Below, in pieces: positions 19,938-40,771 of a stretch of 40,771 bases of DNA. The notes beneath the pieces were generated by a model. It saw nothing but the letters and a program-made list of their open reading frames with translations, made no database searches and was not told where the DNA came from. The translations under genes were made by a program, and so were the position numbers. The DNA comes from Acidimicrobiales bacterium (GTDB lineage: Bacteria > Actinomycetota > Acidimicrobiia > Acidimicrobiales > UBA8190), in assembly GCA_031292675.1 (NCBI GenBank), contig JARLGQ010000185.1, forward strand, positions 1-40,771, read 5' to 3'. Every line of letters starts with the position of its first letter. Position 1 is the first letter of the stretch.

Positions 19938-21041
19938 TCAGCAGATACGCGGCAGCGGGTCGCCCACGAGCATGTCCACGATGCGGGTACCGCCGAATGC
20001 GGTGACGAGCACGACCAGACCGGGCGGCTCGGCTCGAATCTCGCCGATCTGCACCGCGCCACGCCCCAAGGGGTGGTCCCGAAGCGCACCGAGCGCGTCG
20101 GCTGCTTCCCCGGCCGGGACGACGGCGACGAACTTCCCCTCGTTGGCCACGTAGAGGAGGTCGATGCCGAGCAGCTCGCACGCCGCCGCCACCGGTGGCC
20201 GGACGGGAAGCGCCGCCTCGTCCAGCACGACCGTGAGGTTGCAATCCCGGACCAGTTCGTTGCAGACCGTGCCGACCCCGCCGCGGGTGGCGTCGCGGAG
20301 CCACCGGGTCGACGGCGCCGCCGCCAACAGGCACTCCATGAGCTCGTGGAGAGGGGCGGTGTCCGAGACGATGTCGGCCTCGAGTGCGAGGTCTCCGCGG
20401 GCGAGCATGACCGCGGTGCCGTGGTCACCGATGGTCCCCGACGAGATCACGGCATCCCCTTCGGCAACCTTCGCCGCCGAAAGCTGGCGCCCGGCAGGGA
20501 TGGCGGCGACACCGGAGGTGGAGATGTACATGCCGTCGGCGGCGCCGTGCTCGACGACCTTGGTGTCGCCCGTCACGATGTCGATCCCGGCGGCCGCGGC
20601 CGCGTCGGCCATGTCGGCGACGATCTCCCGCAGCGAGTCGATCGGGAAGCCCTCCTCCAAGACGAAGGCGGCCGACAGGGCCAGGGGCCTGCCGCCCATC
20701 ATGGCCAAGTCGTTGATGGTGCCGTGCACGGCGAGATGGCCGGCTGAGCCGCCGGGGAACCGCAGCGGCTTGACGACGAACGAATCCGTGCTGAACGCCA
20801 GGCGCTCACCCGAGGGGAGCGTGAGGACGGCAGCGTCGGTTGACATGCGCAGGAGCTCGTTGGAGAACGCGGGCATGAAGACGGCGTCCAGCAACGCCGC
20901 CGAGGCCTTGCCGCCGGCCCCGTGCGCGAGTGTGACAACCTCGTCGAGCAGGCGGGGCCGCCTCCGGCGGAACGCTTCGATGCGCTCGAAGACCGCCGCC
21001 TCTCGGCCCGAAGCGGCCAGGTTCTGTACCAGGTCGGTCAC
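19938..21041 (-). CDS. hypE: hydrogenase maturation protein HypE
   Basis: 367-residue HypE, which dehydrates the thiocarbamate made by HypF into thiocyanate on its C-terminal cysteine, giving the CN ligands of the [NiFe] centre. The C-terminus is the diagnostic PRIC with the terminal Cys. Other marks are VTLAHGAGGKAS, HGTINDLAMMGG, the ATP region DIVTGDTKVVE and RDATRGGVGTVCNEL, in AIR-synthase-like order. The GTG at 21041 follows AAGGGA and overlaps the stop of the upstream SIS gene by GTGA, so it is translationally coupled. It is the last gene of the hyp operon inside the window and is convergent with the antiporter. Confidence 0.93.
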   Translation of the reverse strand: MTDLVQNLAASGREAAVFERIEAFRRRRPRLLDEVVTLAHGAGGKASAALLDAVFMPAFSNELLRMSTDAAVLTLPSGERLAFSTDSFVVKPLRFPGGSAGHLAVHGTINDLAMMGGRPLALSAAFVLEEGFPIDSLREIVADMADAAAAAGIDIVTGDTKVVEHGAADGMYISTSGVAAIPAGRQLSAAKVAEGDAVISSGTIGDHGTAVMLARGDLALEADIVSDTAPLHELMECLLAAAPSTRWLRDATRGGVGTVCNELVRDCNLTVVLDEAALPVRPPVAAACELLGIDLLYVANEGKFVAVVPAGEAADALGALRDHPLGRGAVQIGEIRAEPPGLVVLVTAFGGTRIVDMLVGDPLPRIC

Positions 21042-21697
21042 GCGCTGATCCCTTCGTCCATGCACCGTTGCACCGTGGCCCACAGCTGCATCAGCAGGGC
21101 GCTTTGCGTCTCCTGGACGCGGTGGACGCTGTCCGACTGCACCACCAGGCAGTACTCGACGGCATCGCTCACCGCTATCGCCCCGCCGTCGTATCCGCAC
21201 AACCCGACGGTGAGGATCCCTCGGCGCGCCGCCTCCTCCAAGGCCCGTAGGACGTTGACCGAGTCCCCGCTGGTCGAGAACCCGACGACGACGTCCTCGG
21301 CGTGGCCGTAGGCGATGATCTGCCGTGAGAAGGCCAGCTCGAAGCCCACGTCGTTGGCCAGGGCGCTGAGCACCGCCGTGTCGTCCACGAGCGACATCGC
21401 CGGCAGGGGGCGGCCCGCGGGCGGATTCCGGAACAGCGCCACCGCGCCCTCGGCGTCCGTGGCACTGCCCCCGTTGCCGAAGCACAGGAGCCGACCGCCA
21501 CCACCCAGACGTTGCGCCACGGCCTGGCCCGCCTGCACCACGCGTGCTTCGCAGCGCTCGAGCGTGGCGCTCCGCAGCGCCCTGCTGTCGGCCATCTTCG
21601 CCTGGGCCGAGGCGGCCAGGTCGTGCACCAGGGCCGGGGCGTCGCGCTCCTCGGACTCGATGAACGGGTAGAGGAAGCCGGTCGGGTCCCTGGTCAC
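21038..21697 (-). CDS. SIS-domain protein, phosphoheptose isomerase (GmhA)-like
   Basis: 219-residue SIS (sugar isomerase) domain protein. The signature LLCFGNGGSATDAEG and the later VVVGFSTSGDSVNVLRALE form the phosphosugar-binding loops seen in sedoheptulose-7-phosphate isomerases. Its place inside a hyp operon, coupled on both sides by GTGA overlaps (21697-21694 with the SIS-HypC gene, 21041-21038 with hypE), is not explained by LPS heptose synthesis in an actinobacterium. SIS proteins are recorded near actinobacterial group 1h hydrogenase genes, so a maturation or regulatory role is more likely (inference). The start GTG was chosen by the overlap; the frame runs further upstream without family similarity. 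Confidence 0.85.
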   Translation of the reverse strand: MTRDPTGFLYPFIESEERDAPALVHDLAASAQAKMADSRALRSATLERCEARVVQAGQAVAQRLGGGGRLLCFGNGGSATDAEGAVALFRNPPAGRPLPAMSLVDDTAVLSALANDVGFELAFSRQIIAYGHAEDVVVGFSTSGDSVNVLRALEEAARRGILTVGLCGYDGGAIAVSDAVEYCLVVQSDSVHRVQETQSALLMQLWATVQRCMDEGISA

Positions 21698-22416
21698 GGC
21701 CCCGTCCCCGAAAGCGTGGTGATCGCCACCCCGGCGTGTGCCAGGACCAGGTCCCCGGGCAGCACCGGCGCCACCAAGCTGACGTCGAGGGTCTCGGTAA
21801 CCCCGCCCACGACAACTTCGGCGGTTCCGTCGGCGCGCACCGTCCGGACCTCGGCCACCCGCCCCTCGTCGGCGCAGGTCACACACACCTGCTCCGTGCA
21901 TTCCGGCTCGGCGTCGACGAGCCCGGGGTGCTCGAACACCACGTGGGTCAGTTCCCACAGCAGGTGGTACAGGAGCACGATGTCACCGGAGTAGGCCGCG
22001 TCGGGGGTCTGACGCCAGGCCACGTGCTCGGCGAGCCCCGATGCCGGGGGGGCGCCCGCCCCCAGCCACAGCCGGGTCAGGCCCCAGGCCTCGGATCGCC
22101 GCAACAAGTCGACCGTGCCGTGGTCGTCGGCCGAGCTCACGGCCAGGAGCACGTCACCGGGGCGCGACAGGAGGCGCAGCGCGCCGCGGAGGTCGGGTCC
22201 CCCGAGGTGCACGGCAGGGAGCGCCCGCTTGCCCACGACGACCGGGTGGACGAACTCGACCGCCACATGTCGGCCGTGTGCCGGCCACTGCGGCGCCACG
22301 CACCACATCACCGCTCCGGCCGCGAACCGGCGGGCCAGCGTCAGTGAGGCCGAGGCGAGCTCGAGCGCCGTCGAAGCGTCCTCGACCGATCGCTGTGCGT
22401 CCTCAGCTTCCATCAT
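21694..22416 (-). CDS. SIS-like / HypC fusion protein (hydrogenase maturation)
   Basis: 240-residue fusion. Residues 1 to about 165 look like a degenerate SIS fold (GDVLLAVSSADDHGTVDLLR, AWGLTRLWLGAG), without the clear GNGGS loop of its neighbour. Residues about 170-240 are a HypC/HupF-type OB-fold chaperone (EQVCVTCADEGRVAEV, LVAPVLPGDLVLAHAGVAIT). In ordinary HypC the essential Cys is residue 2, whereas here the domain is internal with a CVTC pair. A second, canonical HypC is encoded in the same operon. The ATG at 22416 overlaps the hypF stop by 14 nt with GAGGGGG just upstream. It probably carries the Fe(CN)2CO unit or holds the large subunit; the role of the SIS part is unknown. Confidence 0.78.
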   Translation of the reverse strand: MMEAEDAQRSVEDASTALELASASLTLARRFAAGAVMWCVAPQWPAHGRHVAVEFVHPVVVGKRALPAVHLGGPDLRGALRLLSRPGDVLLAVSSADDHGTVDLLRRSEAWGLTRLWLGAGAPPASGLAEHVAWRQTPDAAYSGDIVLLYHLLWELTHVVFEHPGLVDAEPECTEQVCVTCADEGRVAEVRTVRADGTAEVVVGGVTETLDVSLVAPVLPGDLVLAHAGVAITTLSGTGP

Positions 22417-24730
22417 GCCCCCTCAGAGCCCGATGGCTCGCCACTGCGACCTGGCCCAGAGCCAGTCCCCCGTCGTTGGGGGGCACGGCCCGGTGTGTGA
22501 GCGTCTGCAGGCGACGGGCCGACAGCTCGGTGCGCACCAGGTCCACGAGGAGGATGTTTTGGAACACTCCCCCGCTGAGCGCGACCTGATCGATACCGGT
22601 GTCCGCCCTGATCCGGTCGGCCACGTCGCCCACCACACGGGCCAGGGCGAGGTGGAACCCCGCCGCCATGGCACCCACGGGATGGCCACGGCGCCGGTCG
22701 GCGACGAGGGAGCACAACACCGGGGCGGCATCGATCTCGTCGCCCCTCACCTCGAAACGGTAGCGACGGGCCTCGTCGAGATGGGCAGCCGCCATCGTCT
22801 CGAGCTCGATGGCGGCCTGGGCCTCGTACGAGACGGTGTGGCGCACTCCGAGAAGGGAGCTGACGGCGTCGAAGAGCCGGCCCATGCTCGAGCTGCGCAC
22901 GCAGTAGAGGCCTCGCTGGAGCTGGCGCTCCACCACGGCCCGTTCCTCGGCCGTGGCCGTCCGGACCGGCGCCAGGTCCCCCGTCCACGGGATCCCAGCC
23001 GCGAACAGATGGGCCAGGGCGCTGCGATAGGGCCTGCGGACGGTGCTGTCGCCGCCGGGCATCAACACGTAGCGCAGATGGGCGAGTCGTTCGAAGGCGC
23101 CATAGCCGGCCAGGAGCACCTCCCCACCCCAGATGGCCGCGTCGGTGCCGTAACCGGTGCCGTCGAAGGCGAAGCCGATCACGCGCTCGTCGACACCCAC
23201 GGCGTGTTCCACCATGACCGCAGCGATGTGGGCATGGTGGTGCTGCACGAGCTCGACCCCCTGCACCGCCTGCTGTTGGGCCCACCGGCGCGTCTGGTAC
23301 CCCGGGTGGAGGTCGGCCACCAGACGACGGACCTCGACGCCGTGGACATCGGCGAACTGCCGGGTGGAACGCTCGAAGGCCGAAAGCGTCTCGACGCTGC
23401 CCATGTCCCCGATGTGCTGGCTCATCCAGGCTTCTCGTCCCGTGGCGAGGCAGAACGTGTTCTTGAGCTCCCCCCCCGTGGCGAGCACCGGCACCGCCTC
23501 GAAGGGCAGGCGCACCGGGAGGGGCGCGTACCCCCGCGACCTGCGGATGGGCAGCTCCTGGCCACCTTGGGCCCGGACCACCGAATCGTCGCACGGTACG
23601 TGGATGGGCCGGTCGTGGACCAACCAGGCGTCGGCGATGCCGCCCAAGCGGCGACGAGCGTCCTCGTCCTCGTAACACAGCGGCTCGTCGCTCAGGTTGC
23701 CGCTCGTCATGACGAGGACGTCGGGCACCGGGCCCGGGTGGGCGGGAACGGACCGGAAGAGCAGATGATGCAGCGGCGTGTACGGGAGGACGACCCCCAC
23801 GTGGGGGCTGAGGGGCGCCACGTTGGGCGCCAGCGGGCTGTCGGGACGCCGGTGCAGCAACACGATGGGCGCTTGCGCGCTGAGCAGCAGCGACGACTCG
23901 TGCTCGTCGGTGAACGCCAACCTCCGGGCGCCGTCGAGGTCCCGGACCATCACGGCCAAGGGTTTGTGGGGCCGATCCTTGCGGCGACGCAGCTCGTCGA
24001 CGGCGGCGGCCGAGGTGGCGTCGCAGGCCAGGTGGTACCCGCCCAGACCCTTCACGGCCACGATCCCACCACCGGTGAGCGCCTCCTGGGCGGCGGCCAG
24101 CGCCGCGCCGGCCTCGTCCACAGTGCCGGTCGGGCCCTCGAACCACAACCGCGGGCCGCAGTCGGCACAGGCCACCGGCTGGGCGTGGAAGCGCCGGTTC
24201 GTCGGATCGTGGTATTCGCGGGCGCACTCGTCGCACAGGGCGAAGCCGCGCATGGTCGTGTTGGGCCGATCGTAGGGAAGGGTGGTGGTGATGGTGAACC
24301 GGGGACCGCAATTCGTGCAGTTGATGAATGGGTACCGGAAGCGCCGGTCATCGGGGTCGAGCAGCTCGGCCAGGCAGTCCCCGCACACGGCCACGTCGGG
24401 GGCCACCGAGGTCCGGACCGCGCCCTGCGCGTGGCTCTCGACGATGGCGAAGCCCTGTTCCTCCCGGGCCGGGATGGTCGTGGACCGGACGTGGCGGATC
24501 TGGGCCAGCGCCGGCGCGTCGCGGACCAGGCGGACCTCGAAGGACTCGAGCAGCGTGGCAGCGCCCTCGACCTCGACGAAGACCCCCTCGGTGTCGTTGC
24601 CGACACAACCTGCCAACCCGAGCTCGGTCGCCAAACGGTGCACGAACGGCCTGAACCCGACCCCCTGGACCACGCCTGCGACTCGGATCCGATGACGCAG
24701 GGTCGGGTCCGAGACGGCCAACGTGCTCAT
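22403..24730 (-). CDS. hypF: carbamoyltransferase HypF
   Basis: 775-residue HypF, which turns carbamoyl phosphate and ATP into the carbamoyl group passed to HypE. Domains in order: acylphosphatase (GVVQGVGFRPFVHRLA near residue 20), two zinc-finger pairs (CGDCLAELLD with CTNCGPRFT, then CDECAREYHDP with CADCGPR), a YrdC-like domain (GGIVAVKGLGGYHLACDATS, KPLAVMVRD) and a Kae1-like carbamoyltransferase domain (VQHHHAHIAAVMVEH metal motif, ALSGGVFQN). The length is standard. The ATG at 24730 overlaps the hypD stop by ATGA. No defect is visible. Confidence 0.95.
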   Translation of the reverse strand: MSTLAVSDPTLRHRIRVAGVVQGVGFRPFVHRLATELGLAGCVGNDTEGVFVEVEGAATLLESFEVRLVRDAPALAQIRHVRSTTIPAREEQGFAIVESHAQGAVRTSVAPDVAVCGDCLAELLDPDDRRFRYPFINCTNCGPRFTITTTLPYDRPNTTMRGFALCDECAREYHDPTNRRFHAQPVACADCGPRLWFEGPTGTVDEAGAALAAAQEALTGGGIVAVKGLGGYHLACDATSAAAVDELRRRKDRPHKPLAVMVRDLDGARRLAFTDEHESSLLLSAQAPIVLLHRRPDSPLAPNVAPLSPHVGVVLPYTPLHHLLFRSVPAHPGPVPDVLVMTSGNLSDEPLCYEDEDARRRLGGIADAWLVHDRPIHVPCDDSVVRAQGGQELPIRRSRGYAPLPVRLPFEAVPVLATGGELKNTFCLATGREAWMSQHIGDMGSVETLSAFERSTRQFADVHGVEVRRLVADLHPGYQTRRWAQQQAVQGVELVQHHHAHIAAVMVEHAVGVDERVIGFAFDGTGYGTDAAIWGGEVLLAGYGAFERLAHLRYVLMPGGDSTVRRPYRSALAHLFAAGIPWTGDLAPVRTATAEERAVVERQLQRGLYCVRSSSMGRLFDAVSSLLGVRHTVSYEAQAAIELETMAAAHLDEARRYRFEVRGDEIDAAPVLCSLVADRRRGHPVGAMAAGFHLALARVVGDVADRIRADTGIDQVALSGGVFQNILLVDLVRTELSARRLQTLTHRAVPPNDGGLALGQVAVASHRALRGHDGS

Positions 24731-25866
24731 GCGCCCAGCACACTCCCGCGACCCAGGGTCACCGCTGCCTCCCGGTGCATCCGTCCGAAGTTGTAGTAGG
24801 CGGCACAGGCACCTTCGGAGGAGACCATACAGGTGCCGATCGGCGTCTCTGGGGTGCAGGCGGTTCCGAACACCTTGCACTCCCATGGCTTGATGACGCC
24901 CTTCAACACCTCGCCGCACTGGCACGCCTTGGGATCCGCCACCCGCACCCCGGGGATGGGGTATCGCACCTCGGCATCGAACGGGGCGAATTCCGGGCGC
25001 AGCTTCAGCGCGCTCTGGGAGATGAAGCCCAGCCCCCGCCACTCGAAATGCGGCCGGAGCTCGAAGACCTCGTCCAGGACAGCCAGGGCCCTCGGATTGC
25101 CGTCCTCGCGCACCACCCGGGAGTACTGGTTCTCGACCTCGCACCGGCCTTCGCGGATCTGGGTGAGCAGCATGGCGATGGCGTGCAGGATGTCGAGCGG
25201 TTCGAACCCCGCCGTCACGAGAGGCTTCCCGTACCGGGACGGCACGAACCGGTACGGCCGCTGACCCACGACGGTGGACACGTGCCCGGGGCCGAGGAAA
25301 CCGTCCAGGCGGAGGTCGGGCGACTCGAGGATGGCGCGCAGCGGCGGCACGATCGTGACGTGATTGGAGAACACGCTGAAGTTGTCCACCTGGCGGGCCC
25401 TGGCCTGAAGGAGGGTGAGCGCGGTCGACGGAGCCGTGGTCTCGAATCCCACGGCGAAGAACACCACCTGCCGGTCGGGACTCTCCATGGCGATGCGCAG
25501 GGCGTCCAGTGGCGAGTAGACGAGGCGGACATCGGCCCCTTCGGCCTTGGCCTTCAGGAGGTTGCCCCGGCTGCCGGGGACCCGCATCATGTCGCCGAAG
25601 GACGTGAAGGTCACCCCCGGCTCCTTCGCCACCGAGATGGCGTCGTCCACACGTCCCATGGGGATGACACACACCGGACACCCCGGCCCGTGCACCAATT
25701 CCACAGACGCCGGGAGGACGTGCTCGATGCCGTGGCGGTAGATGGTGTGGGTGTGGCCCCCGCACACCTCCATGAACTTGAATTCGTCGTCGCCGGCCAG
25801 CGCCGTGATCTGCGCGAGCAGAGCACGCGCCGCCACCGGATCGCGGTACTCCTCGACGAATCGCAT
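24727..25866 (-). CDS. hypD: hydrogenase formation protein HypD
   Basis: 379-residue HypD, the [4Fe-4S] scaffold on which, with HypC, the Fe(CN)2CO moiety is assembled. Motifs: EVCGGHTHTIYRHG, the redox motif HGPGCPVCVIPMG, FFAVGFETTAP, and the C-terminal cysteine set ACQCGEVLKG, CKVFGTAC and GTCMVSSEGAC. Length and motif order are standard. The ATG at 25866 lies 8 bp after the 54-codon ORF, and the stop overlaps hypF by ATGA. Confidence 0.95.
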   Translation of the reverse strand: MRFVEEYRDPVAARALLAQITALAGDDEFKFMEVCGGHTHTIYRHGIEHVLPASVELVHGPGCPVCVIPMGRVDDAISVAKEPGVTFTSFGDMMRVPGSRGNLLKAKAEGADVRLVYSPLDALRIAMESPDRQVVFFAVGFETTAPSTALTLLQARARQVDNFSVFSNHVTIVPPLRAILESPDLRLDGFLGPGHVSTVVGQRPYRFVPSRYGKPLVTAGFEPLDILHAIAMLLTQIREGRCEVENQYSRVVREDGNPRALAVLDEVFELRPHFEWRGLGFISQSALKLRPEFAPFDAEVRYPIPGVRVADPKACQCGEVLKGVIKPWECKVFGTACTPETPIGTCMVSSEGACAAYYNFGRMHREAAVTLGRGSVLGA

Positions 25867-25874
25867 GGGCGGGC

Positions 25875-26039
25875 CTACGCGGCGGAGTGCAGCCGGGAAC
25901 GGGCCACGGAATCCCCCGCGGTCCCCGCGGAGATGTCACTGCCCCGGCGCACGGAACCGCGACCGGGCGAGAACCCGCCCGCCACGAGGCCTTTGACCTC
26001 GTCCGAGGTGCAGATGACCACAGCGATGATGGTCCCCAT
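25875..26039 (-). CDS. 54-aa unrecognised protein inside the hyp operon
   Basis: A 54-codon gene between hypC and hypD. It begins MGTIIAVVICTSDEVKGLVA, then GGFSPGRGSVRRG, and ends in a basic Ser/Ala-rich tail. There is one cysteine (C10) and a short hydrophobic N-terminal strand; it is too short for a clear membrane helix or signal peptide. The ribosome site AGGAGGAGG ending about 5 nt before the ATG is one of the strongest in the window. The start is 1 nt after the hypC stop and the stop is 8 bp before hypD, so it is embedded in the operon and surely translated with it. I do not recognise the family. A role in cofactor assembly or a hydrogenase accessory part is only inference. Confidence 0.7.
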   Translation of the reverse strand: MGTIIAVVICTSDEVKGLVAGGFSPGRGSVRRGSDISAGTAGDSVARSRLHSAA

Positions 26040-26040
26040 C

Positions 26041-26331
26041 TCATCCTCCTCCTGTATCGCTCGTGATCTTCGACGACCGGAACGCCTCGAGCTCCTCGCC
26101 GTAGGCCCTTCCCATGAGCTGCAGGGAGGCGAGAGCGAGGTTGGCCTCCTCCTCGTCGATCTTCGACATGGCGAACCCGACGTGGACGAGGACCCAATTG
26201 CCGGGCTCCAGGTGCTCGTCCTCGAGCAACCCGATGCTGATGATGCGGGTCACCCCGGACACGTCGACCCGGGCCAGGTGCTCATCGGCGTCCACGAACT
26301 CGACCAGCTGGCCGGGAATGCCTAGGCACAT
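26041..26331 (-). CDS. hypC: hydrogenase maturation chaperone HypC
   Basis: 96-residue HypC beginning MCLGIPGQLVEF, with the essential Cys2 that coordinates the iron fragment together with HypD. The OB-fold body includes RIISIGLLEDEHLEPGNWVL and VHVGFAMSKIDEEEA, the conserved HypC end. The ATG at 26331 was chosen by Met-Cys and by GAGGAGG about 8 nt upstream; a longer frame upstream has no similarity. It lies 13 bp after the hypA end. The C-terminal 20 residues extend past the usual core. Confidence 0.93.
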   Translation of the reverse strand: MCLGIPGQLVEFVDADEHLARVDVSGVTRIISIGLLEDEHLEPGNWVLVHVGFAMSKIDEEEANLALASLQLMGRAYGEELEAFRSSKITSDTGGG

Positions 26332-26344
26332 GTCGGTGGCCTCC

Positions 26345-26598
26345 TCACCCTCGATACTCGATCGACTCGAGCAAGAGCTCATCGCCCCCTCCGAGGTCCA
26401 TGTCTAGCGAACCGCAAGCCGGACAGGCCACGGGCACGTCCTCGCACTGCCAGTCCCCCTCGCATCCGAGGCAGTGCGCAACCATCGGGACGAGCACCGA
26501 TTCCACGGCGGCGTTCACGGCGACGGTCCCCATGACGGCAAGGACGAATGAGCGGTCGAAGGCGTCGGCATGGACTTGATGGAGACGAGCTCGTGCAC
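26345..26598 (-). pseudogene. hypA: hypA with an internal deletion and frameshift
   Basis: Nickel metallochaperone HypA delivers Ni to the hydrogenase large subunit. The GTG at 26598 has an AAGGAGG site and encodes M-H-E-L, the Ni-binding start of HypA, but that frame then turns non-homologous (SIKSMPTPSTAH) and stops near 26515. The conserved rest lies in another frame: ADAFDRSFVLAVMGTVAV, then the zinc site HCLGCEGDWQC and VACPACGS, then GGGDELLLESIEY. From start to stop is 254 nt, not a multiple of 3 and about 30 codons short of the usual 110-115 residues. The C-terminal frame has no start codon until the ATG at 26533, which would give 62 residues with the zinc site but without MHE. Seen directly: broken frame. 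Inferred: deletion, real or an assembly fault. Confidence 0.65.
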
Positions 26599-26600
26599 GA

Positions 26601-27116
26601 CTATGCCTCCTTCGCGGCGACGATCTCCACGCGCACGGTCACTTCGGGCTGGACCTTCAACATCAGCACTCGCGGTGGCTCCATCCCGTATTCCCGAACG
26701 TCGAAGCGCGACTCCCCGGCGAGCCTGATCGTCTGGTCGTCCAGGGCACGGATCGTCATCTCGTCCTCGTGATGACGGGTCACACCCCTGAAGGCGATCT
26801 CTCCACTCACCTTGTAGGTCCCGTCCGCCCCGCTTGGTTCCAGACTCGTGAGGACTCCGTCGATGGTGGGGTACTTTCGCGCTTCGATGCGCTTGTGCAT
26901 CTCGTGCTCCTCCATACGGTTGTCCGACTTCAGACGCGATACCGCCAGCGACAGCTTCCCGACGGGCTTCGTGCTCAGATCCACTGATCCGTCCGGGTCG
27001 AGCTCGATCTCGATGAACCCTTCGAGACCGTCGGTGCCGGAGTGGATGGGATGGACACTGGACCGGGCCTCTATCCACACCTGGGAGCGCTCGGGGACGA
27101 TGCCGAAGCGGGCCAT
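26601..27116 (-). CDS. YceI-family protein (cytoplasmic, hydrogenase-associated)
   Basis: 171-residue YceI-like lipocalin-fold protein. It begins MARFGIVPERSQVWIEARSS and contains the family strands SDNRMEEHEMHKRIEARKYP and FRGVTRHHEDEMTI. Most YceI proteins are exported, but this one has no signal peptide, so it should be cytoplasmic; signal-less YceI proteins of this type are found beside actinobacterial hyp genes. It is the first gene of the operon, with its stop 2 nt before the hypA GTG. The promoter should lie in the 167-bp gap up to 27283. The ATG at 27116 was preferred over a GTG at 27146 because similarity begins there. Ligand unknown (isoprenoid-like lipid by family). Confidence 0.85.
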   Translation of the reverse strand: MARFGIVPERSQVWIEARSSVHPIHSGTDGLEGFIEIELDPDGSVDLSTKPVGKLSLAVSRLKSDNRMEEHEMHKRIEARKYPTIDGVLTSLEPSGADGTYKVSGEIAFRGVTRHHEDEMTIRALDDQTIRLAGESRFDVREYGMEPPRVLMLKVQPEVTVRVEIVAAKEA

Positions 27117-27283
27117 CGGCCCTAGATCCCCATGGTGACGCGACAACGGAGGACGATCAGAGATCGTACCGACTCGCCGTTTCGCCGCCCCGAGCGTGTG
27201 CGCTTCGCCTTCATGTCACATGGGGCGCATGTTGCGGTACCGGGCCATGTCGGACAGGGACTTCAGCGGGAAGCGACCACCGC

Positions 27284-30529: not shown

Positions 30530-31210
30530 CTAGGCGCAAGGTGAGGCCTCTACGCGCCGACAATCCGGGCTGAGCGATTCGGCTCGCGCCTTGATGCCAC
30601 CGAGCATTCTTCGGCACATGGCGAAGTCGCCGAACTCCATCAGCAGCACGCCAAGGACAGCCGTCAGCGGGTGTCGCCAGTCGTAGACGGCACAGATGCG
30701 GGTTACGAGGCGGGTGCCGTTGTCGTCGGTGGGAGTGAGCTGCCACGCCCATGTACTGTCCGGCTTGCTCCAGAGCAACCACTCGCCGACTCGAAACGAG
30801 TGGACCTTGAAGGCGGTCTTGAGGGAGGGCGCCCCCGAGGGGGACATCGGCACCCACTGGCCGACCTCGAGCCCCTGCAGGTCGGGCACGACGGTGGTGG
30901 CGCTGGGATGGCCGAGGTTGTCCAGCAGGTCGTTGCTGTACCAGCCGGCGCGCAGACAGCCGACCTGCACGAGCCACGGCCCTACGTCTGCAGGCGGGAC
31001 GTCGATGGTGATCGCCCTGGTCGCTTTGAACTGGGCGTCCGACAGGAGCGCGTCACCGGGAAGGGAGCTGTCGACTTCGGCGGGCGTGGCCCCCCAATGG
31101 AGGTGCCGTCTTCTGAAGAACGGGGCGGTCAAGAAGGACGGCAGATCGTGGGTGACGTCACGGATCTCCGCGAGCAGGTCCCGCAACGTCGGCCTTGCGA
31201 CATCGGCCAT
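30530..31210 (-). CDS. SRPBCC (polyketide cyclase/START-like) protein
   Basis: 226-residue soluble protein. A helical N-terminal region (MADVARPTLRDLLAEIRDVT) is followed by a START-like ligand-binding fold: AITIDVPPADVGPWLVQVG, CLRAGWYSNDLLDN, VGQWVPMSP, EWLLWSKPDSTWAWQL and TRLVTRICAVYDW. This is the layout of actinobacterial SRPBCC proteins, which bind hydrophobic ligands; the ligand is unknown. The ATG at 31210 is preceded by AAGGAG with 8-nt spacing; the frame runs on upstream without similarity. It is followed by the CoA-binding gene's end on the same strand, and the pair could be one operon (93-bp gap). Confidence 0.75.
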   Translation of the reverse strand: MADVARPTLRDLLAEIRDVTHDLPSFLTAPFFRRRHLHWGATPAEVDSSLPGDALLSDAQFKATRAITIDVPPADVGPWLVQVGCLRAGWYSNDLLDNLGHPSATTVVPDLQGLEVGQWVPMSPSGAPSLKTAFKVHSFRVGEWLLWSKPDSTWAWQLTPTDDNGTRLVTRICAVYDWRHPLTAVLGVLLMEFGDFAMCRRMLGGIKARAESLSPDCRRVEASPCA

Positions 31211-31302
31211 CTCGAACGCTCCTTGGGCGGACTTGAGAGCACGTGCCGGCCCGCTGTCACCGCCCTTTGGCGGACAACGCACCACGGCTCCCCTCGGCCG
31301 GA

Positions 31303-31779
31303 CTACACCCGCGTCGGCACCTTGCCTGTCAGCGTGAACATCACGCGCATGACCTTGTGTCCAGGATCGGCCGTGGGATCGAACATGCACGGGCAACCCC
31401 CGTCGATCACCTTGATGCCTTGCTGGCGGCCGAAATCCGCAGCCGACTTCGAGACGCTGCCCGCGCCGAAGGCCCGGTGCATCCAGACGCGCTTGATTCC
31501 GAGCTCGGCACACTCGTGCATCGTGGCATCTGCGGTCTCGGGCTTGGTGCCGATCACGACCCAATCCACCCCGTCGGGAATCGACTTCAGATCGTGGTAA
31601 GAGCGATCGCCTTCGACTTCGTCGGCATGAGGATTGACTGCAAAGACCTCGTATCCCCGCTCTCGGAGGCGTTTGTAGACGACGTTGCTGCCGTGATTGC
31701 CGGGGGTTCGTGACACACCGGTTACCGCCACCCTCCTCTGGGCCAAGAACTCGCTAGCGACTCCTTTCATCTTCTCCAT
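31303..31779 (-). CDS. CoA-binding domain protein (YccU-like)
   Basis: 158-residue Rossmann-fold CoA-binding protein. Visible motifs are VAVTGVSRTPGNHGSNVVYK (nucleotide loop), RGYEVFAVNPHADEVEG, DWVVIGTKPETA and a conserved end with VIDGGCPCMF. It resembles stand-alone CoA-binding proteins related to succinyl-CoA synthetase alpha subunits. No partner gene indicates a reaction. The ATG at 31779 was chosen because GGAGGAGG sits 7 nt upstream; a longer frame to 31881 has no similarity. Confidence 0.82.
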   Translation of the reverse strand: MEKMKGVASEFLAQRRVAVTGVSRTPGNHGSNVVYKRLRERGYEVFAVNPHADEVEGDRSYHDLKSIPDGVDWVVIGTKPETADATMHECAELGIKRVWMHRAFGAGSVSKSAADFGRQQGIKVIDGGCPCMFDPTADPGHKVMRVMFTLTGKVPTRV

Positions 31780-32117
31780 CAGAAGTCCTCCTCCGCGAGC
31801 GACGTTCGCTGACCCCCACGAACGCCAGACCCACCCGACGCGCTCCCCGTAGAGCAGGGAGACGGGGGCCACGGCCGCCATCGTCCCTCACATTTCCTTG
31901 GTTCCAGGGTGACACCTCAGGGTCGTCGACGGCAGGGCCGAAGGACCCCCATCGGGAACCGTCGGGCCATACACGGCGTGTCGAGCACCGTCCTCGGAAT
32001 GCCAGCCGGGGGCACGGTCTTGTCGGACGAGGCCTCAGGCCCCACGGCGCTAGAGACGTTCCCTTTCGTCCTGCTCAGCGGCTCGACAGGTCGCGTGACC
32101 CGGTGACGTGGCGTGTA
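31780..32117. other. intergenic region
   Basis: 338 bp between the CoA-binding gene start and the end of the secreted glycosidase, both on the minus strand. It should hold the promoter for the former. I see no gene and no clear promoter boxes or terminator. Confidence 0.3.
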
Positions 32118-33245
32118 TCAACCTCGTTCCCGGTGTCTCGCCGAGACCGGGCCGGCCAGTCCGTACGTCCGCTTCTCAGAGAGGTAGGACCGGAAGAATG
32201 AGGCCAGATCGTTGGCGGCAGGGCGTAGCGTCCAAGCTCCAGCACGACCGGCGAAGATGTGCGTATACCCACCGGAGGTCGATGTCCCGGGGCCCACCCA
32301 GTAGTTGAGGCCGGCTACATAGCCAAGGGTGCGTATTCCGGTCAGCTCCTCTGCGATGACGGATTCCTGCTGCGCATCGCTGACGGGTAGCCCGTCGCTG
32401 TATCCCATCTCTCCGACAATGACGGGAACGTCTGGTCGGGCGGCATGGATGGCCGCGAGTTCACTCAGCCGCGCATGGGCGGCTGCGGTTGGGTCGGTCA
32501 GTGTCCCTTCTGGATAGCTGTCGAAAGTGACGTTTCCGAGCCGATCGACAGTGCGGTTGTAGAGAGACTTCGGGCTGGCTGCCCACCACCCACTGACTGA
32601 TCGGATGTTCGTGATGACCCCCCTCACTCCATTGGCCTTCAGAGCCCGGTTTGCGATCTCCGTCGTCTGCAGGATGAACCGGTTGAACTGATTGGTGTAG
32701 GTATTGGGCGCATGCCGCCAACTCCAGCCCGACGGGAATGTCGCGTTCCAGTACAGGCCATCCTCGGGCTCTGATATCGGGTCGAAGATGTCCCCGGCTC
32801 GAAAGAAACCCGGATGAGCATCGATGAACGATCGCTCGGCCGATTCGAATTGCGACGGACTCATGATGCCCGTCGCTCCGTTGTCGTCGTGCCATTGGTT
32901 CGGTTGGGTTCGGAACCACACGTGTTTCCCCGCCGCCCGGATGGCATCAATCCATTCCTTCATGTAGGCGGGATACTCCCAGTTCGTGTCGACGGTGATG
33001 TACGTCGTATTGAGCGATGCACAAAGATCGACTGCTTGGGCAATCTGGCTGGCTGTCTCGGGGTGCGTTGCCGTATCCCGACTGACCTTCATCGTGTCGA
33101 TCGACGCGATGAAAGCGCTGGTCCTGCTGGGTGACCTCAGGCTCCCCACCGCCACCATCGGCAACAGCGCCAGCAGTGCCAAAGACAGGACGGCTCCAGG
33201 ATGTGCGAGCTGTTGGTAGAACCTCAGCCGACCAGCCGTGGACAC
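32118..33245 (-). CDS. secreted TIM-barrel glycosidase-like protein (clan GH-A type)
   Basis: 375-residue exported protein. The signal or anchor helix is at residues 18-36 (AVLSLALLALLPMVAVGSL). The barrel begins FIASIDTMKVSRDT and has eight beta-alpha-like units. The likely acid/base is E159 (FDPISEPEDG) and the nucleophile E279 (VIVGEMGYSDG), spaced 120 residues apart as in clan GH-A. WFRTQPNQWHDD and GLNYWVG are other substrate-cleft candidates. The GH family number is uncertain. The GTG at 33245 follows GGAGGCGGAGAG. It is upstream-adjacent to a tRNA-Gly half copy, and the next gene (OsmC) runs the other way. Confidence 0.65.
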   Translation of the reverse strand: MSTAGRLRFYQQLAHPGAVLSLALLALLPMVAVGSLRSPSRTSAFIASIDTMKVSRDTATHPETASQIAQAVDLCASLNTTYITVDTNWEYPAYMKEWIDAIRAAGKHVWFRTQPNQWHDDNGATGIMSPSQFESAERSFIDAHPGFFRAGDIFDPISEPEDGLYWNATFPSGWSWRHAPNTYTNQFNRFILQTTEIANRALKANGVRGVITNIRSVSGWWAASPKSLYNRTVDRLGNVTFDSYPEGTLTDPTAAAHARLSELAAIHAARPDVPVIVGEMGYSDGLPVSDAQQESVIAEELTGIRTLGYVAGLNYWVGPGTSTSGGYTHIFAGRAGAWTLRPAANDLASFFRSYLSEKRTYGLAGPVSARHRERG

Positions 33246-33355
33246 CTCTCCGCCTCCGTCTTACCCTTACGCCTTCATGGTCGCACAACGGGGCAGAGCT
33301 CGCCGAAGTCGGCTATGCCCATGCACCCTTGTTGAGTCGCTGCCTGGACCTTCTC

Positions 33356-33400
33356 CGGAGCGGACGACGAGATTCGAACCCACGGCGCGGACCTTGGCAA
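33356..33400 (-). repeat. decayed 3' half of tRNA-Gly(GCC)-like sequence (site A)
   Basis: On the minus strand the sequence reads TTGCCAAGG, then GGGTTCGAATC and CGTCGTCCGCTCC: the anticodon loop of tRNA-Gly(GCC), the T-loop and the acceptor end. The T-stem has mismatches and the CCA is altered, so it is not a working tRNA. The 5' half is not recognisable. A related copy lies at 39966-40010 in the same orientation, and similarity continues outside the tRNA part (GTCCAGG downstream; GGGGAGTTG and GACGCTGCGT upstream, about 33343-33448). It could be a mobile-element attachment scar or a dispersed tRNA-derived repeat. Confidence 0.6.
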
Positions 33401-33481
33401 GGACCAGAGTCGCAACTCCCCACCAACTTCGGAACTTGACGCAGCGTCATCGGCGTCTTCCACCGACCACAGGAGGCACAC

Positions 33482-33988
33482 GTGGATCCTGAGGAACTGA
33501 AGGAACTCCAGGCCCCGCTGAAGGCTCGCTATCGCGACGACCCGACGGCAGCGAGGATCACCTTGGAGGCAGAGGGCCGCCTTGGGAACGAAGAGGTGAG
33601 CTGTTCCGTGGCGACTGGTCGAGCAGTAGTCGAGGCCGGTCTTCACCCGGCGACAGGGGGCGATGGCACCTTTGCCTGTTCTGGAGACATGCTGCTCCAG
33701 GCGCTGGTGGCTTGCGCTGGCGTGACGCTTCGATCCGTGGCTACCAACCGGGGGGTTGAGGTCGACGGCCTCGTCCGTGCGGAGGGTGACCTCGACTTTC
33801 GTGGAACATTGGGTGTCGATCGAAATGTCGCCGTTGGGTTCACGTCGATCCGGCTGTCGTTCGACCTCTCGAGTTCCGCGTCGGAAGACGAACTCAATGC
33901 CCTTGTCGAGACGACGGAGCGATATTGCGTGGTTCTACAGACGCTCATGCGATCACCACAGATCGAGGTCTCCTCAGCCTCCATGTGA
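33482..33988 (+). CDS. OsmC-family protein
   Basis: 168-residue OsmC/Ohr-like protein, probably a thiol-dependent hydroperoxide or related stress enzyme. The two conserved cysteines appear in QALVACAGVTLR and TERYCVVLQTL, the usual pair of the OsmC family. The N-terminus (MDPEELKELQAPLKARYRDD) is helical with a lead of about 30 residues before the barrel. The GTG at 33482 follows AGGAGG with 5-nt spacing, a strong start. It lies just inside the region between the two tRNA-Gly half copies. Confidence 0.85.
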   Translation: MDPEELKELQAPLKARYRDDPTAARITLEAEGRLGNEEVSCSVATGRAVVEAGLHPATGGDGTFACSGDMLLQALVACAGVTLRSVATNRGVEVDGLVRAEGDLDFRGTLGVDRNVAVGFTSIRLSFDLSSSASEDELNALVETTERYCVVLQTLMRSPQIEVSSASM

Positions 33989-34155
33989 GGGGAGCCGCGG
34001 TGGCCAGTCCGCCAAGCAGCGCCCGCGAGTACTGAGCGGGACGCCTTCGATGCGGACCGCCCTCATACGGCATCCACTGCGCCTGGTGAAGGTCCGTAAT
34101 GGCAACCCCATGACCGACGTGGGACACTTCCCGTCACGTTCGAAGGGAGGTCGGA

Positions 34156-34314
34156 ATGGCTGCACCACAATTCGTCAGCAACAACAGGGACATCGTGATG
34201 GTGCTGCAAGCTGGGTCGTCTGAAATCGCCGGCGACTTCCCCCCCTCGCTGGACGCAAAGGTCAGGGCGGTCCTTGCAACATTGAGGCGCGAGATGAAAG
34301 GGAACGAGGAATGA
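34156..34314 (+). CDS. 52-aa protein coupled to a class II aldolase
   Basis: A 52-codon gene (MAAPQFVSNNRDIVMVLQAG, then SSEIAGDFPPSLDAKVRAV, ending with a charged MKGNEE). The ribosome site AAGGGAGG lies 5 nt before the ATG. Its stop TGA overlaps the aldolase ATG at 34311 (ATGA), so the two are translationally coupled and probably act together. It is soluble with no membrane segment, a short beta-like start and a helical end. I do not recognise a family. It could be a regulatory subunit or just a coupling leader. Confidence 0.65.
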   Translation: MAAPQFVSNNRDIVMVLQAGSSEIAGDFPPSLDAKVRAVLATLRREMKGNEE

Positions 34315-34976
34315 GCGAACTGCTCTTGGCAGCTGAACGAGAGGCCGTGGCAGGCGCGAGCCGCTATCTGGCCGAAAAGGGCCTCGTCATCGGCACGGCG
34401 GGTAACATCTCCGCCCGTCAGGGAGACCTGATCGCGGTGACTCCTACGGGGTCTGACCTCGGGACGGTGACGGCAGAGATGATCACCGTCATCGACCTGG
34501 GTGGCATGGTCGTGGACGGCGACCTCGCCCCCACATCAGAGGTACCGCTTCACACAGGAATCTACGCCGCCACGAATGCCCTTGCCATAACACACGCCCA
34601 TGCCATGGCGTCCACTGCGCTTTCATGTTGTCACGACGAGCTACCGGCACTGCACTACAGCTGTTTGGAATTGGGAGGCACGCCCCGCACGGCACCCTAC
34701 GCCACCTTTGGCTCTCAGGAGTTGGCCGACAATGTCATCGAAGCACTGAAGGGGCGGAACGCCGCCATGATGCAGAACCACGGTTCGGTTGCCTACGGCT
34801 CAACCATGGATCAGGCCATACACCGCCTGGAGCTTCTCGAATGGCTGGCCGAGCTGTACTGGCGAGCCTCTTCCATGGGGATACCCCATGTGCTGACGGA
34901 CAAGGACTTCGAGGCCATCATCACGGCAGCCATCGAGCGTGGATACGGTGCCCTGAAGAAGGTCGACAAGGGCTGA
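34311..34976 (+). CDS. class II aldolase/adducin family protein
   Basis: 221-residue class II aldolase (fuculose-phosphate aldolase/AraD family), which cleaves or epimerises sugar phosphates using a zinc ion. Motifs: GTAGNISARQGDLIAVTPTG, the acid in SEVPLHTGIY, the zinc-ligand pair THAHAMAS, and the third His in QNHGSVAYG. The length is typical. The start ATG at 34311 overlaps the small upstream gene. No sugar-specific transporter or kinase lies nearby, so the substrate is not known; the GC content looks lower than in the hyp operon. Confidence 0.9.
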   Translation: MSELLLAAEREAVAGASRYLAEKGLVIGTAGNISARQGDLIAVTPTGSDLGTVTAEMITVIDLGGMVVDGDLAPTSEVPLHTGIYAATNALAITHAHAMASTALSCCHDELPALHYSCLELGGTPRTAPYATFGSQELADNVIEALKGRNAAMMQNHGSVAYGSTMDQAIHRLELLEWLAELYWRASSMGIPHVLTDKDFEAIITAAIERGYGALKKVDKG

Positions 34977-35296
34977 AGTCAGGATCGGAGGCGGCGATCC
35001 CTGACCGCCCGTAGCACGCGACGCGGCTCGCTGGGGGGCGAATGGAGAGCAAGAAGACCGCGACGTCCCAAAATATCGGGGGCGTCGTCGGCAACCTCGA
35101 GGGTTCGTCTGATTGCTGTGTCGGGTCTACCTGGCTGCCTGTGACAAAACCCTGTCACACCACGTCGACAAACACACCCTTCGCACATCACGGTCGAAAT
35201 GATCTCAGCACCCGCGCTCTACTATGACCGGCACCATGTCGCCCTCGCCCTGCAGACGAATCCCCTGGTCGCCTACGGTAGAAGTGTCAACGTGGG
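34977..35296. other. intergenic region with an inverted repeat
   Basis: 320 bp between the aldolase and the cyclase remnant. It contains TGTGACA at 35140-35146 and TGTCACA at 35153-35159, a perfect 7-bp inverted repeat with a 6-nt spacer, which could be a regulator's operator. It does not fit the CRP site because the TGTGA/TCACA spacing is 10, not 6. A short frame from 35042 exists but I do not regard it as a gene. Promoter boxes are not clear. Confidence 0.35.
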
Positions 35297-35623
35297 ATGG
35301 GAGCATCGGTGACCACCGACAAGGTCATTGCGCTGTTCACCGACCTCGTGGGTTCAACGGAGTTCCAGTCGAGCGTCACACCAGAGATCTCCTACGAGGT
35401 GCGACGAAACCATTTCTCGGCCCTGGGCAAGGCCGTGGCGAAGACCGGATGCCCTCCGGGAACGACGCTGGAGGCCCCAAGTGCAGATGGTCCGCGTCTG
35501 GAGGACTTTCGGGACCCCCAAGGCGGTCGCGACCCATCGCGTCGTCACGATTCCACCAAAAGGTCTTGCCAGTTGGCGGGAACCCGTCCAGCGGGTCCAG
35601 GCACGGGTTGGTCGAGGGGATGA
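35297..35623 (+). pseudogene. remnant of a class III adenylate/guanylate cyclase
   Basis: From about 35309 the translation reads VTTDKVIALFTDLVGSTEFQ and continues SYEVRRNHFSALGKAVAKTG. This is the start of a class III nucleotide cyclase domain with the first metal-binding Asp (FTDLVGS). After about 35465 the match stops: the expected second metal Asp (GDG segment) and the rest of the 170-residue catalytic domain are missing, and the frame continues as Arg/Pro-rich noise. The 3' end overlaps the opposite-strand UBP zinc-finger gene. So this is a truncated, inactive fragment. A deletion junction is likely near 35465. Confidence 0.6.
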
Positions 35624-35892
35624 TGCTGCGGGGGTGCGAGGTGAGGCCCTTCCATGTATTCGTTTGTTCGGTAGTTCCAAAACCAATCCTCGCCTGGCTC
35701 GAAGCTGCGGATGACAGGGTGCCCTGACGAGTTCGCATGCGCGGTCGCGTGCCGGCTGGGCGAGTTGTCGCAACATCCAATGTGGCCGCACTCCGTGCAC
35801 CGTCGTAGGTGTAGCCACCAACCGCCAGAGTCGAGACACTCCACGCAACCGTTCCCGCTTGGTGGAACCTCTGGATCGAAGGAATTCGTCAT
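35545..35892 (-). CDS. UBP-type zinc-finger protein
   Basis: 115-residue protein dominated by a UBP-type zinc finger: GCVECLDSGGWWLHLRRCTE, CGHIGCCDNSPSRHAT, then HANSSGHPVIRSFEPGEDWF. The Cys/His set is complete. Such stand-alone domains are common in actinobacteria with unknown partners; ubiquitin is absent there, so the ligand differs (inference). The ATG at 35892 follows GGGAGGTG. The C-terminal 40 residues are Pro-rich. It lies on the opposite strand to the cyclase fragment and overlaps its non-homologous tail. Confidence 0.8.
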   Translation of the reverse strand: MTNSFDPEVPPSGNGCVECLDSGGWWLHLRRCTECGHIGCCDNSPSRHATAHANSSGHPVIRSFEPGEDWFWNYRTNEYMEGPHLAPPQHHPLDQPVPGPAGRVPANWQDLLVES

Positions 35893-36083
35893 GTCGGCAC
35901 CTCCCGCTACGTATCTGTCGGCGGTTATGGGAAAGAGCTAACGTCGGGAACCACAATGAAGTTGTCTTCGGTCAGCCCCAACTCGTCATACCGCAGGTGG
36001 CCTTTCGCCCACGGTCCGAACGATGTGTTCACCCGAGTCAGACTGACTCTGCTTTCTGATCGCGCTCGAAAGACTACCTCTCC

Positions 36084-36575
36084 ATGATCCGCCTGATTGC
36101 TGCCATGGACACGAACAGGGGTATCGCCACCGACAAGGGCATTCCTTGGAAGTTGCCCGGCGATGCTGCCTACTTCGAAAGCCAGACCACGACCGGACTC
36201 ATAGTCATGGGCTGGGCCACGTACAGCGAGTTCTCAGCCCCACTGCACGATCGGGACAATTACGTGCTGACCCGCGAGCAGAGTCGCCTAAGGTCCGGCT
36301 TTGAATCAATCGCCACTTTGACTGAGCTGATGAAGAGCCACCCCAACAAGGATGTGTGGGTCATCGGAGGGGCCTTCGTATTTGCAGAAACAATCGACCG
36401 AGCCGACGAGCTCTTCATCACTCAGGTTCTCGAGGATTTTCATTGCACAAAGTTCTTCCCCGACTATCGCAGCGGATTCACCAGGTTCGAACAAGGCAAG
36501 GACCAGGAGGAGAGCGGCGTTCGATACCGATTCGAGAGATGGCGCCGGAGCATCGAACCCCGGATCGGACTCTGA
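36084..36575 (+). CDS. dihydrofolate reductase
   Basis: 163-residue dihydrofolate reductase, which makes tetrahydrofolate with NADPH. It begins MIRLIAAMDTNRGIATDKGI with the strand and loop of DHFR. PWKLPGDAAYF gives the catalytic Asp, GLIVMGWATYSEF corresponds to the usual MGRxTW segment, and DVWVIGGAFVFAETI is the NADPH-binding GG motif with FVF in place of the more usual QIY. It may be an additional, accessory-region copy rather than the housekeeping enzyme, since no thyA is nearby; trimethoprim insensitivity cannot be told. GC content looks lower than the window average. Confidence 0.85.
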   Translation: MIRLIAAMDTNRGIATDKGIPWKLPGDAAYFESQTTTGLIVMGWATYSEFSAPLHDRDNYVLTREQSRLRSGFESIATLTELMKSHPNKDVWVIGGAFVFAETIDRADELFITQVLEDFHCTKFFPDYRSGFTRFEQGKDQEESGVRYRFERWRRSIEPRIGL

Positions 36576-36880
36576 CGTAACGAGAGCGTGCCCAACCTCC
36601 ACCCGCCCCATATCCACCCCTCCCCTCGTGCCCGTGTGGCCCGCCCGCTCGGCCACGTCGCGCCGCGAAGGTGTCGCATTGCCGTCGGCCGCCACGTCGG
36701 GCTCATGGACCGGCAACCGGAGGTCCAGCCAAGAGAGCGCCTCACCCATGCCATTTGAACGGGAATTGACAGCAATAGGATTGCGGCCGCGCCATACCGG
36801 GTGGGTCGGGGTTCCTCTCAGGTCCTACCGGGGGTGATGTATCCGGCTCAGGCCACAGACATTTCCGAACACTGGTACAG
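36576..36880. other. intergenic region downstream of DHFR
   Basis: 305 bp between the plus-strand DHFR stop and the minus-strand MBL gene stop (convergent). I see no gene. I found no strong hairpin terminator in the part I examined. Confidence 0.3.
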
Positions 36881-37534
36881 CTAGCCATCCTTCTTTGCGA
36901 TGACTGTCCGCGAGGAGTGCCAGAGCGTGCGGAGGTTTCCCCAGTCGGGATACCGTTCGACCATTCGGGCGATGATGCCAGCTGCCGTGGTCTCCTCAGT
37001 CACGATCCGGGAGAAGTCGCGCAGGTACTGCTGGGATTCTCCGATGATCTTCGGATCGTTGTCGTTCTCGACTTTCTTGTGCCCGGCGACAACGAAGGTG
37101 GGATTGAGGGCAGCAACCGCGTCCAGGTTGGCGATCCACTGCTGCCGTTCGGCTTCACCGCATTCCGCCGTCATCATGTGCACTTCGTTGTAGGCCAGAT
37201 CCCCGGTGATGACGGCGGCCAGCGACGGAACGTGGAGCACAGTCGATTCGGCGGTATCCGCCTGACCGATCTTGATGACCCGGATCTTGTTGCCTTCCAG
37301 GTCAATCGTGTCGGTCGTCAGAAGCTGCGGCAAGACCTTGTCGGCTCCGGTAGGAACTTCGCCGGGGAAGATCCCCTCCCAATACCCGGCCATGCCCGCT
37401 CCCGCCTCGAACTCCACTCGGGCGAGAACCTCAGGCGTCGCCAGACCCGTAGCGTCGAAGATCTCGCCGTCGTAGTCGCCCGTGTGGGCCGGGTAACCGT
37501 GGGGATTGGCGACGTCAAGGAGCGCCTCGACCAT
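36881..37534 (-). pseudogene. N-terminally truncated MBL-fold metallo-hydrolase
   Basis: 217 residues from the ATG at 37534. The C-terminal part resembles MBL-fold hydrolases: DTIDLEGNKIRVIKIGQADT, then HVPSLAAVITGDLAYNEVHM with the GD metal Asp, AECGEAERQQWIANLDAV and TFVVAGHKKVEND with the last His. The N-terminal third, which would carry the HxHxDH zinc motif, is missing: before GLATPEVLARV the sequence (MVEALLDVANPHG) is unrelated. The frame is open a further 144 nt upstream, also without similarity. Probably an inactive relic of a roughly 290-residue enzyme, cut by a deletion or insertion near 37460. Confidence 0.65.
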
Positions 37535-38231
37535 CTGGAGCGTACCTTCGGCACGTGAGCTAGGGCCTTGCACGCGCCACCTTGCGGCGTCTGAGCGGGT
37601 CGAGATCGAGGTTCTCAGCCTGCTGGGATGACACGGCGAAGACATCCACCTCCGGGCGTCAACGAGCACCAAGGCCAAGAGGACCTCGTCACTCGTCGAT
37701 TAGCACAGTCAGCGGCGTTTGGCACCGACATCGCCTTCAAACTCCGAGACACCATCCGGATCGACACGATCCCCGCCGGAGGACCCTCGTCGGCAGTCTC
37801 GGCCAGCGCAGGCGACGGGCGCAAAGACTCGTAATGGACCCAGTCGGCCCTTGAGCAGTCAACGGGACCCTCCCCCATCGCTGTCGGGCGCTCCCGAGCC
37901 CGCACAGAACGTCACCCACGTGGACGTCGTGGGGAAGATCAACGGGATCGGCGTATAACGGTCGACGACTCGCCTCCTGCCTCAATCGACCCGACGTGAC
38001 CTCATCAACATTGACGAAGGGACGGCCCCAACTTGGGTCATTGGCATCCAAAGCGCGCCGGCATGACAGTTGGACTGATCAAGGCTGGCTCCCGAGAGGC
38101 AAAGGGAGCAATAAGTCTGATTCTCGGACCAAGTGTAAGGTCAAGGAAGGAAGATTTGACTCCCAGTCAGTTCCTGACCAGTGCAACACGTTGGTCGCTC
38201 GTAGCCAGCGACCATAGGGTGGGGGAGCATC
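37535..38231. other. 697-bp region without a recognised gene
   Basis: Between the truncated MBL gene and the DUF2510 gene. Short frames on both strands have no ribosome sites or family-like composition. It may hold the lost 5' part of the MBL gene in degraded form, but I found no HxHxDH motif in any frame I looked at. The start of the DUF2510 gene is preceded by GGGTGGGGGAG. Confidence 0.3.
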
Positions 38232-39578: not shown

Positions 39579-39917
39579 TTCGACCCGGGAAGCCTGGAGA
39601 GGCTCTAGGAAACCCGGGCCGTGTCATAGGGTTCTGACCAGGCCCTCGACGCCGTGTTCTTGGACTGTGCGCGGCCCATTGCCGTGGCTTGTGCGTCGAG
39701 GCTGCTCTCTCCCCAACACTTCGAGTGGGCGCTAGTGGAGTCGAACATCGACCACCCGCCCGCGGTTTGCCGGGGGAAACGCTCGGGTCGGATGACCCTG
39801 ACACGCAAAGATAAGGGTCAACGGCCCACCCCCGAAAAACACCCAACAACCCCACCGAAAAACACCAAGATGTGGTGTGTGGTGCAAATGTGGTGCGCCT
39901 CGCTCTCAAACGCGCCA

Positions 39918-39941
39918 CGAGAGGCCCATTTCGGCCTCTCG
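39918..39941 (-). terminator. 9-bp hairpin downstream of the tRNA-Gly half
   Basis: Perfect inverted repeat CGAGAGGCC / GGCCTCTCG with a 6-nt loop. On the minus strand it lies 24 bp past the tRNA-like 3' end and is followed by a weak T-rich stretch, like the terminator of a tRNA gene. It supports the idea that 39966-40010 is the displaced end of a real tRNA-Gly gene. Confidence 0.5.
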
Positions 39942-39965
39942 CACCGTCCACTACCTGGACTTTCT

Positions 39966-40010
39966 TGGAGCGGACGACGGGATTCGAACCCGCGATCCTC
40001 ACCTTGGCAA
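39966..40010 (-). repeat. 3' half of tRNA-Gly(GCC) with CCA (site B), candidate attachment scar
   Basis: Minus-strand sequence begins TTGCCAAGGTGAGGATCG and ends CGTCGTCCGCTCCA. It has the GCC anticodon loop, a fully paired T-arm (GCGGG/TTCGAAT/CCCGT, one G-T), the 3' acceptor strand CGTCCGC and CCA. The 5' half (acceptor, D arm and anticodon 5' strand) is absent: the sequence to the right does not pair. Integrases often use the 3' half of tRNA genes, leaving such a fragment at the far end of an element. By that geometry the element would lie to the right of 40010, where the toxin-antitoxin genes are. Confidence 0.65.
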
Positions 40011-40171
40011 CAAAAAGGGGCCCAACTCCCCCGCCTGCATCTTTGCAATACACGCAGCGTCAATCGGCAATTTCGGTTGACCACAATGAACCGCGAGTGA
40101 CCGAAATTGTCAATGGCGCGTGCGTCTGATGTGGAGCGTGAACCCGGGAATCCCGTACCACGTGCACCACA

Positions 40172-40681: not shown

Positions 40682-40771
40682 CGTTGTACAATTCGTCGTT
40701 CTCGCCGCGCCAGCCGGGCCAGTGCGGGAATCTCCTCGGCAGGGGTGTCCAACCAGCGGTAGAAGGACTCA
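40678..40771 (-). CDS. DUF1778-type antitoxin, C-terminal part (partial)
   Basis: Only the last 30 codons are in the window; the gene continues off the right edge. The visible end reads SFYRWLDTPAEEIPALARLA and then a basic tail, resembling the C-terminal neutralising segment of DUF1778 (TacA-like) antitoxins. Its stop overlaps the GNAT start by ATGA, the usual order and coupling of antitoxin then toxin. The DNA-binding ribbon-helix-helix domain would lie outside the window. Confidence 0.6.
   Translation of the reverse strand, partial: ESFYRWLDTPAEEIPALARLARRERRIVQR

Follow-up and report, generated by a model that had tools for sequence, protein, structure and literature searches.

A probable recent pseudogene of hypA in an otherwise intact hydrogenase maturation operon of an Acidimicrobiales bacterium

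The hypA gene in the window, which is the entire contig C11 (40,771 bases) of a fragmented metagenome-assembled genome (MAG), was found to be split between two reading frames on the minus strand (26345-26598). As sequence, the gene is broken here. It is likely a real pseudogene, probably of recent origin, whose parent was a dispensable HypA borne in the hyp operon and separate in lineage from the HypB-linked HypA. A deletion of 82 nt that removed roughly residues 5-31, with a shift of frame, would have occurred after the split from the lineage of the closest relative (L045). Translation from the ribosome site would now stop after 27 codons, with the zinc-binding half left out of frame, and the loss would have been tolerated since the operon HypA is dispensable, as suggested by several relatives that have lost it wholly or in part.

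The operon is arranged on the minus strand and by hypD its closest named relatives are Acidimicrobiia and other actinobacterial MAGs. Genes identified in order were a YceI-like gene upstream in the same operon (26601-27146, PF04264, E 2e-10), the hypA remnant, hypC (26041-26331, MCLGIPG..., PF01455, E 7e-24), hypD (24727-25866, TIGR00075, 499 bits), hypF (22403-24730, 775 aa, TIGR00143, 782 bits), a SIS-like protein with a C-terminal HypC-like domain (21694-22416, PF01455, E 3e-8), a SIS-domain, phosphoheptose isomerase-like gene (21038-21958, true start probably near 21660) and hypE (19938-20948, TIGR02124, 397 bits), which forms the C-terminal part of a longer open frame. HypC, HypD, HypF and HypE matched their Pfam and NCBIfam models over essentially full length, which bears out the original prediction of a broken hypA among four intact maturation genes. 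No hypB was found in the operon or in the bin by profile search. The gap between hypC and hypD (25870-26040) of about 170 nt may hold a gene for a small protein of roughly 54 residues (MGTIIAVVICTSDEVKG...), compared with a spacing of the hypC and hypD matches of only 8-23 nt in L044 and L045. Many actinobacterial hyp clusters conserve the SIS-like/HypC-like fusion next to hypE. Scans for promoters and terminators around hypA found nothing and an Rfam scan of the window gave no match.

The first frame of the remnant (26515-26598) starts with GTG-CAC-GAG (fMet-His-Glu) at 26598, behind a ribosome-binding site AAGGAGG (26606-26612) located within the end of the YceI gene. It carries the nickel-site motif V(M)HE and reads VHELVSIKSMPTPSTAHSSLPSWGPSP*, a total of 27 aa, with the stop at 26515-26517. 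The second frame (26345-26587), next to the first, reads ...RLHQVHADAFDRSF...CLGC...CPAC...LLLESIEYRG* and is open to 26345. In HypA, nickel is bound by the N-terminal amine, His2 and probably Glu3, and zinc is held by two CxxC motifs (PMC5557546). Both zinc motifs (CLGC and CPAC) are present in the second frame, and the nickel site at 26598 does not share a frame with the remainder of the protein. The earlier description of a strong ribosome site and M-H-E start in one frame and the zinc half in another holds, except that the start codon is GTG instead of ATG. The second frame matched the Pfam HypA family (PF01155) at positions 35-111 of 112 with an E-value of 3e-12, and its resemblance to HypA is not due to chance since the score was 47 bits against a cut-off of 28.9. 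The equivalog model TIGR00100 scored the remnant at 34.8 bits, below its cut-off of 88.1, and intact members of the operon HypA clade likewise scored below it (58.6-72.8 bits). The L045 HypA had no match among solved structures at E 0.001. Overall, the remnant shares with the HypA nickel metallochaperones (PF01155, TIGR00100) the zinc half with two CxxC motifs, the conserved C-terminal strand, the GTG-His-Glu start and the position next to hypC and hypD. It differs from them in that its halves lie in different frames and about residues 5-31 are missing, and the single open frame of about 110-117 codons of a functional HypA is not found at this place.

The deletion junction was located at 26585-26588 on the minus strand (GTGCACGAGCT, CG, TCTCCAT), where the two sides overlap by 2 nt. 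In five relatives (L045, G034, G007, G044 and L051), 31 residues precede the residue (Arg, but Ala in G007) that aligns with the Arg of the window's RLHQVH, and in the window only 11 nt precede it. The missing length is thus 93 - 11 = 82 nt, or 27 codons plus 1 nt, which accounts for the frame shift. A piece is indeed missing between the halves, and it is somewhat shorter than the 30 or so codons first estimated.

In the HypD tree the sister of the window is L045 (MAG LSA5.bin83; support 94/85), which has the same gene order (YceI-hypA-hypC-hypD-hypF) and a whole hypA of 110 codons with 54% identity to the window over the remnant. An in-frame hypA of about 113 codons in a close relative had been named as evidence against a break; the L045 gene is such a hypA, and it shows an intact ancestor, not an intact copy in the window. 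The intact operon hypA genes of L045, G034, G007 and G044 occupy the same place as the remnant, before hypC and after YceI where present, and belong to the same sequence class (LHxVH...GGDELxLESI), but they are single open frames of 110-126 codons whereas the remnant lies in two. In L044 and L046 the YceI match and the hypC match are about 16 and 11 nt apart, and in G008 and G020 about 72 and 4 nt apart, with no hypA between them. In L051 (MAG CP_BM_ER_R9_11), an in-frame HypA of 78 residues adjoining hypC (2105-2338) keeps the V-H-E start and is missing both CxxC motifs, and no further HypA match was found in that genome. The hypA slot therefore shows four states: some genomes have the gene whole, some have it empty, L051 has it without the zinc half and the window has it frame-broken. 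Deep branches of the HypD tree are poorly resolved and the number of losses is thereby not fixed, although there were at least two separate partial losses because the missing parts in L051 and the window differ.

HypAs from the slot and HypAs adjoining HypB fall on either side of one branch (support 93/100; 100% of bootstrap trees). The remnant falls in the operon clade, unlinked to HypB, with L045 and L051 as its nearest rows. L045 carries both kinds. L044, L046 and G020 carry only a HypB-linked hypA elsewhere in the genome and have an empty slot, while G034, G007 and G044 carry only the slot kind, with no HypB over the cut-off. Judged from these sequences, HypA in this bacterial group seems to comprise two distinct lineages, of which the first is linked to HypB and the second resides in the hypC-hypD operon and has been lost repeatedly. 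The HypA/HybF paralogues of bacteria with several hydrogenases, such as HypA and HybF of E. coli (review PMC12134894), resemble this arrangement in that a genome can hold more than one HypA, as in L045, and one copy can be spared. Here, in contrast, several genomes have the operon copy but no HypB, and in the window's bin this copy is the sole trace of HypA.

Over the codons shared with the sister gene, and with G034 as outgroup, the window had 17 unique residues and L045 had 6 (chi2 5.3), a comparison that rests on 23 sites. HypD and HypC showed no such excess, and their identities to G034 were similar for the window and L045; together with the 17:6 ratio this suggests relaxed constraint on the remnant. 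In the zinc half, the third-position share of changes was 0.48, the same as for the intact pair, GC3 was 0.80, all four Cys were kept and there were no further stops. The third-position share and the retained Cys argue that the break is probably recent. Either the decay is recent or some constraint may remain on the zinc half, which still looks coding.

The bin (406 contigs, 86% complete, 7% contamination) contains a hydrogenase at C205 with an intact large subunit (RICGICPVAYQ...DPCISCAAHFL, both CxxC motifs), small, FAD and iron-sulphur subunits and a protease; its group 3b type was assigned from gene content and not by a classifier. A short PF00374 match had raised the possibility that the genome has no hydrogenase, which was rejected once the locus was read and the intact 3b-like large subunit was found. 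HypCDEF would still build the Fe(CN)2CO part for this group-3b-like hydrogenase, which lies elsewhere in the bin; nickel would enter without HypAB or via genes absent from the incomplete bin. Alternatively, the hydrogenase system itself may be beginning to decay. Intact 3b-type large subunits were also identified in G001, G003 and G005 (L141, L144 and L140), whose bins contain neither hypD nor hypF; binning may therefore miss hyp genes, and these cases reflect either a binning gap or something stranger.

How nickel is supplied bears on two further readings. A second HypA, with HypB, could lie outside the bin and serve the nickel step, leaving the operon copy redundant. This is a possible complement, held to be somewhat doubtful; it bears on why the loss was tolerated and agrees with a pseudogene. 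It agrees with the HypB-linked hypA found elsewhere in L045, L044, L046 and G020 and with a bin that is fragmented and incomplete. Against it, no second hypA and no hypB was found in the bin, so that the proposal of a nickel step served elsewhere was not borne out here. In addition, G008 (96% complete) and G009 (91%) contain hydrogenase large and small subunits and HypCDEF and neither HypA nor HypB, and since all three bins are without both genes, absence by chance in each of them is unlikely. The hypF of G009 at first appeared broken; a run of N interrupts its reading, and it was not taken as evidence of decay. The other reading, considered improbable, is that some Acidimicrobiia may mature a group 3b [NiFe] hydrogenase by HypCDEF without HypA or HypB, with nickel arriving via another route or unassisted, and that the window would capture this loss at its final stage. 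In E. coli, HypAB can be bypassed when nickel is high (PMC12134894); H. pylori lacking HypA does not regain hydrogenase with nickel in excess (PMC5557546).

Whether contig C11 belongs to the bin affects how these absences are read. Its tetranucleotide correlation with the bin was 0.42-0.80, compared with 0.75-0.93 for most other contigs, and it is possible that the contig is mis-binned or an island. Its most atypical part was 30580-40771 (GC 0.616, correlation 0.42). In G001, the only congener compared, there was one 60-base DNA match to the central 20 kb of C11, and the C205 large subunit had 90% identity. For the NAPRTase gene of C11 the best matches (63-68%) came from the same family, a result in keeping with the right family and no proof of the right species. 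Because C11 is atypical for the bin and absences from the bin may refer to another organism, the genome-wide absence of another HypA is less sure. A stretch at 33343-33433 resembles the 3' part of a tRNA-Gly (anticodon GCC, by eye) with the normal 5' part missing, and similar stretches occur in G001, G003 and G008. It could be an attachment-site remnant; ARAGORN called no tRNA in the window, this stretch included.

That the organism's hypA is intact, with 82 nt lost by the metagenome assembly through collapsed strain variants, for example, or by a base-calling error, was judged quite unlikely, as was the corresponding suggestion of dropped bases in the original prediction. The contig does come from a MAG whose bin is partly contaminated, the frame is otherwise clean and the sister L045 carries an intact gene. 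However, the junction lies mid-contig, the contig has no N and no repeat of ≥14 nt occurs at the join. A join on 2 nt common to both sides argues against a graph-assembly error because an assembler would need a longer overlap. An assembly error would also leave the faster evolution of the remnant relative to the sister gene unexplained, and the relatives show recurrent loss at the same slot.

A short functional protein was considered least probable, whether made as a zinc piece of 62 residues by reinitiation or as a product of about 85 residues by frameshifting near the junction. A 62-codon ATG frame does exist inside the remnant (26345-26533), its ATG lies 16 nt ahead of the stop of the first frame, near enough for reinitiation, and the zinc half keeps its four Cys, its open frame and third positions that look coding. 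A HypA shortened in frame can exist, as L051 shows, though there it is the other half that is retained. The use of a 62-residue HypA, as once proposed, is nevertheless disfavoured since this piece misses the entire nickel site (the N-terminal amine, His2 and probably Glu3; PMC5557546) and its start is not preceded by an evident ribosome site. A frameshift product would miss about residues 5-31, no slippery site was seen by eye, and the zinc half itself is where the faster change is seen. Programmed frameshifting as the main reading was rejected, as 27 codons would remain missing.

A limited literature search found no paper on hypA loss in Acidimicrobiia. As an event, the decay of this hypA is most likely ordinary; the pattern of two HypA lineages and the possible HypAB-free 3b hydrogenase add some interest. 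The probable pseudogene in the window would be a maturation gene caught during loss. If closed genomes were to confirm a [NiFe] hydrogenase matured without HypA and HypB, such organisms would offer a direct test of the need for HypAB at natural nickel levels.
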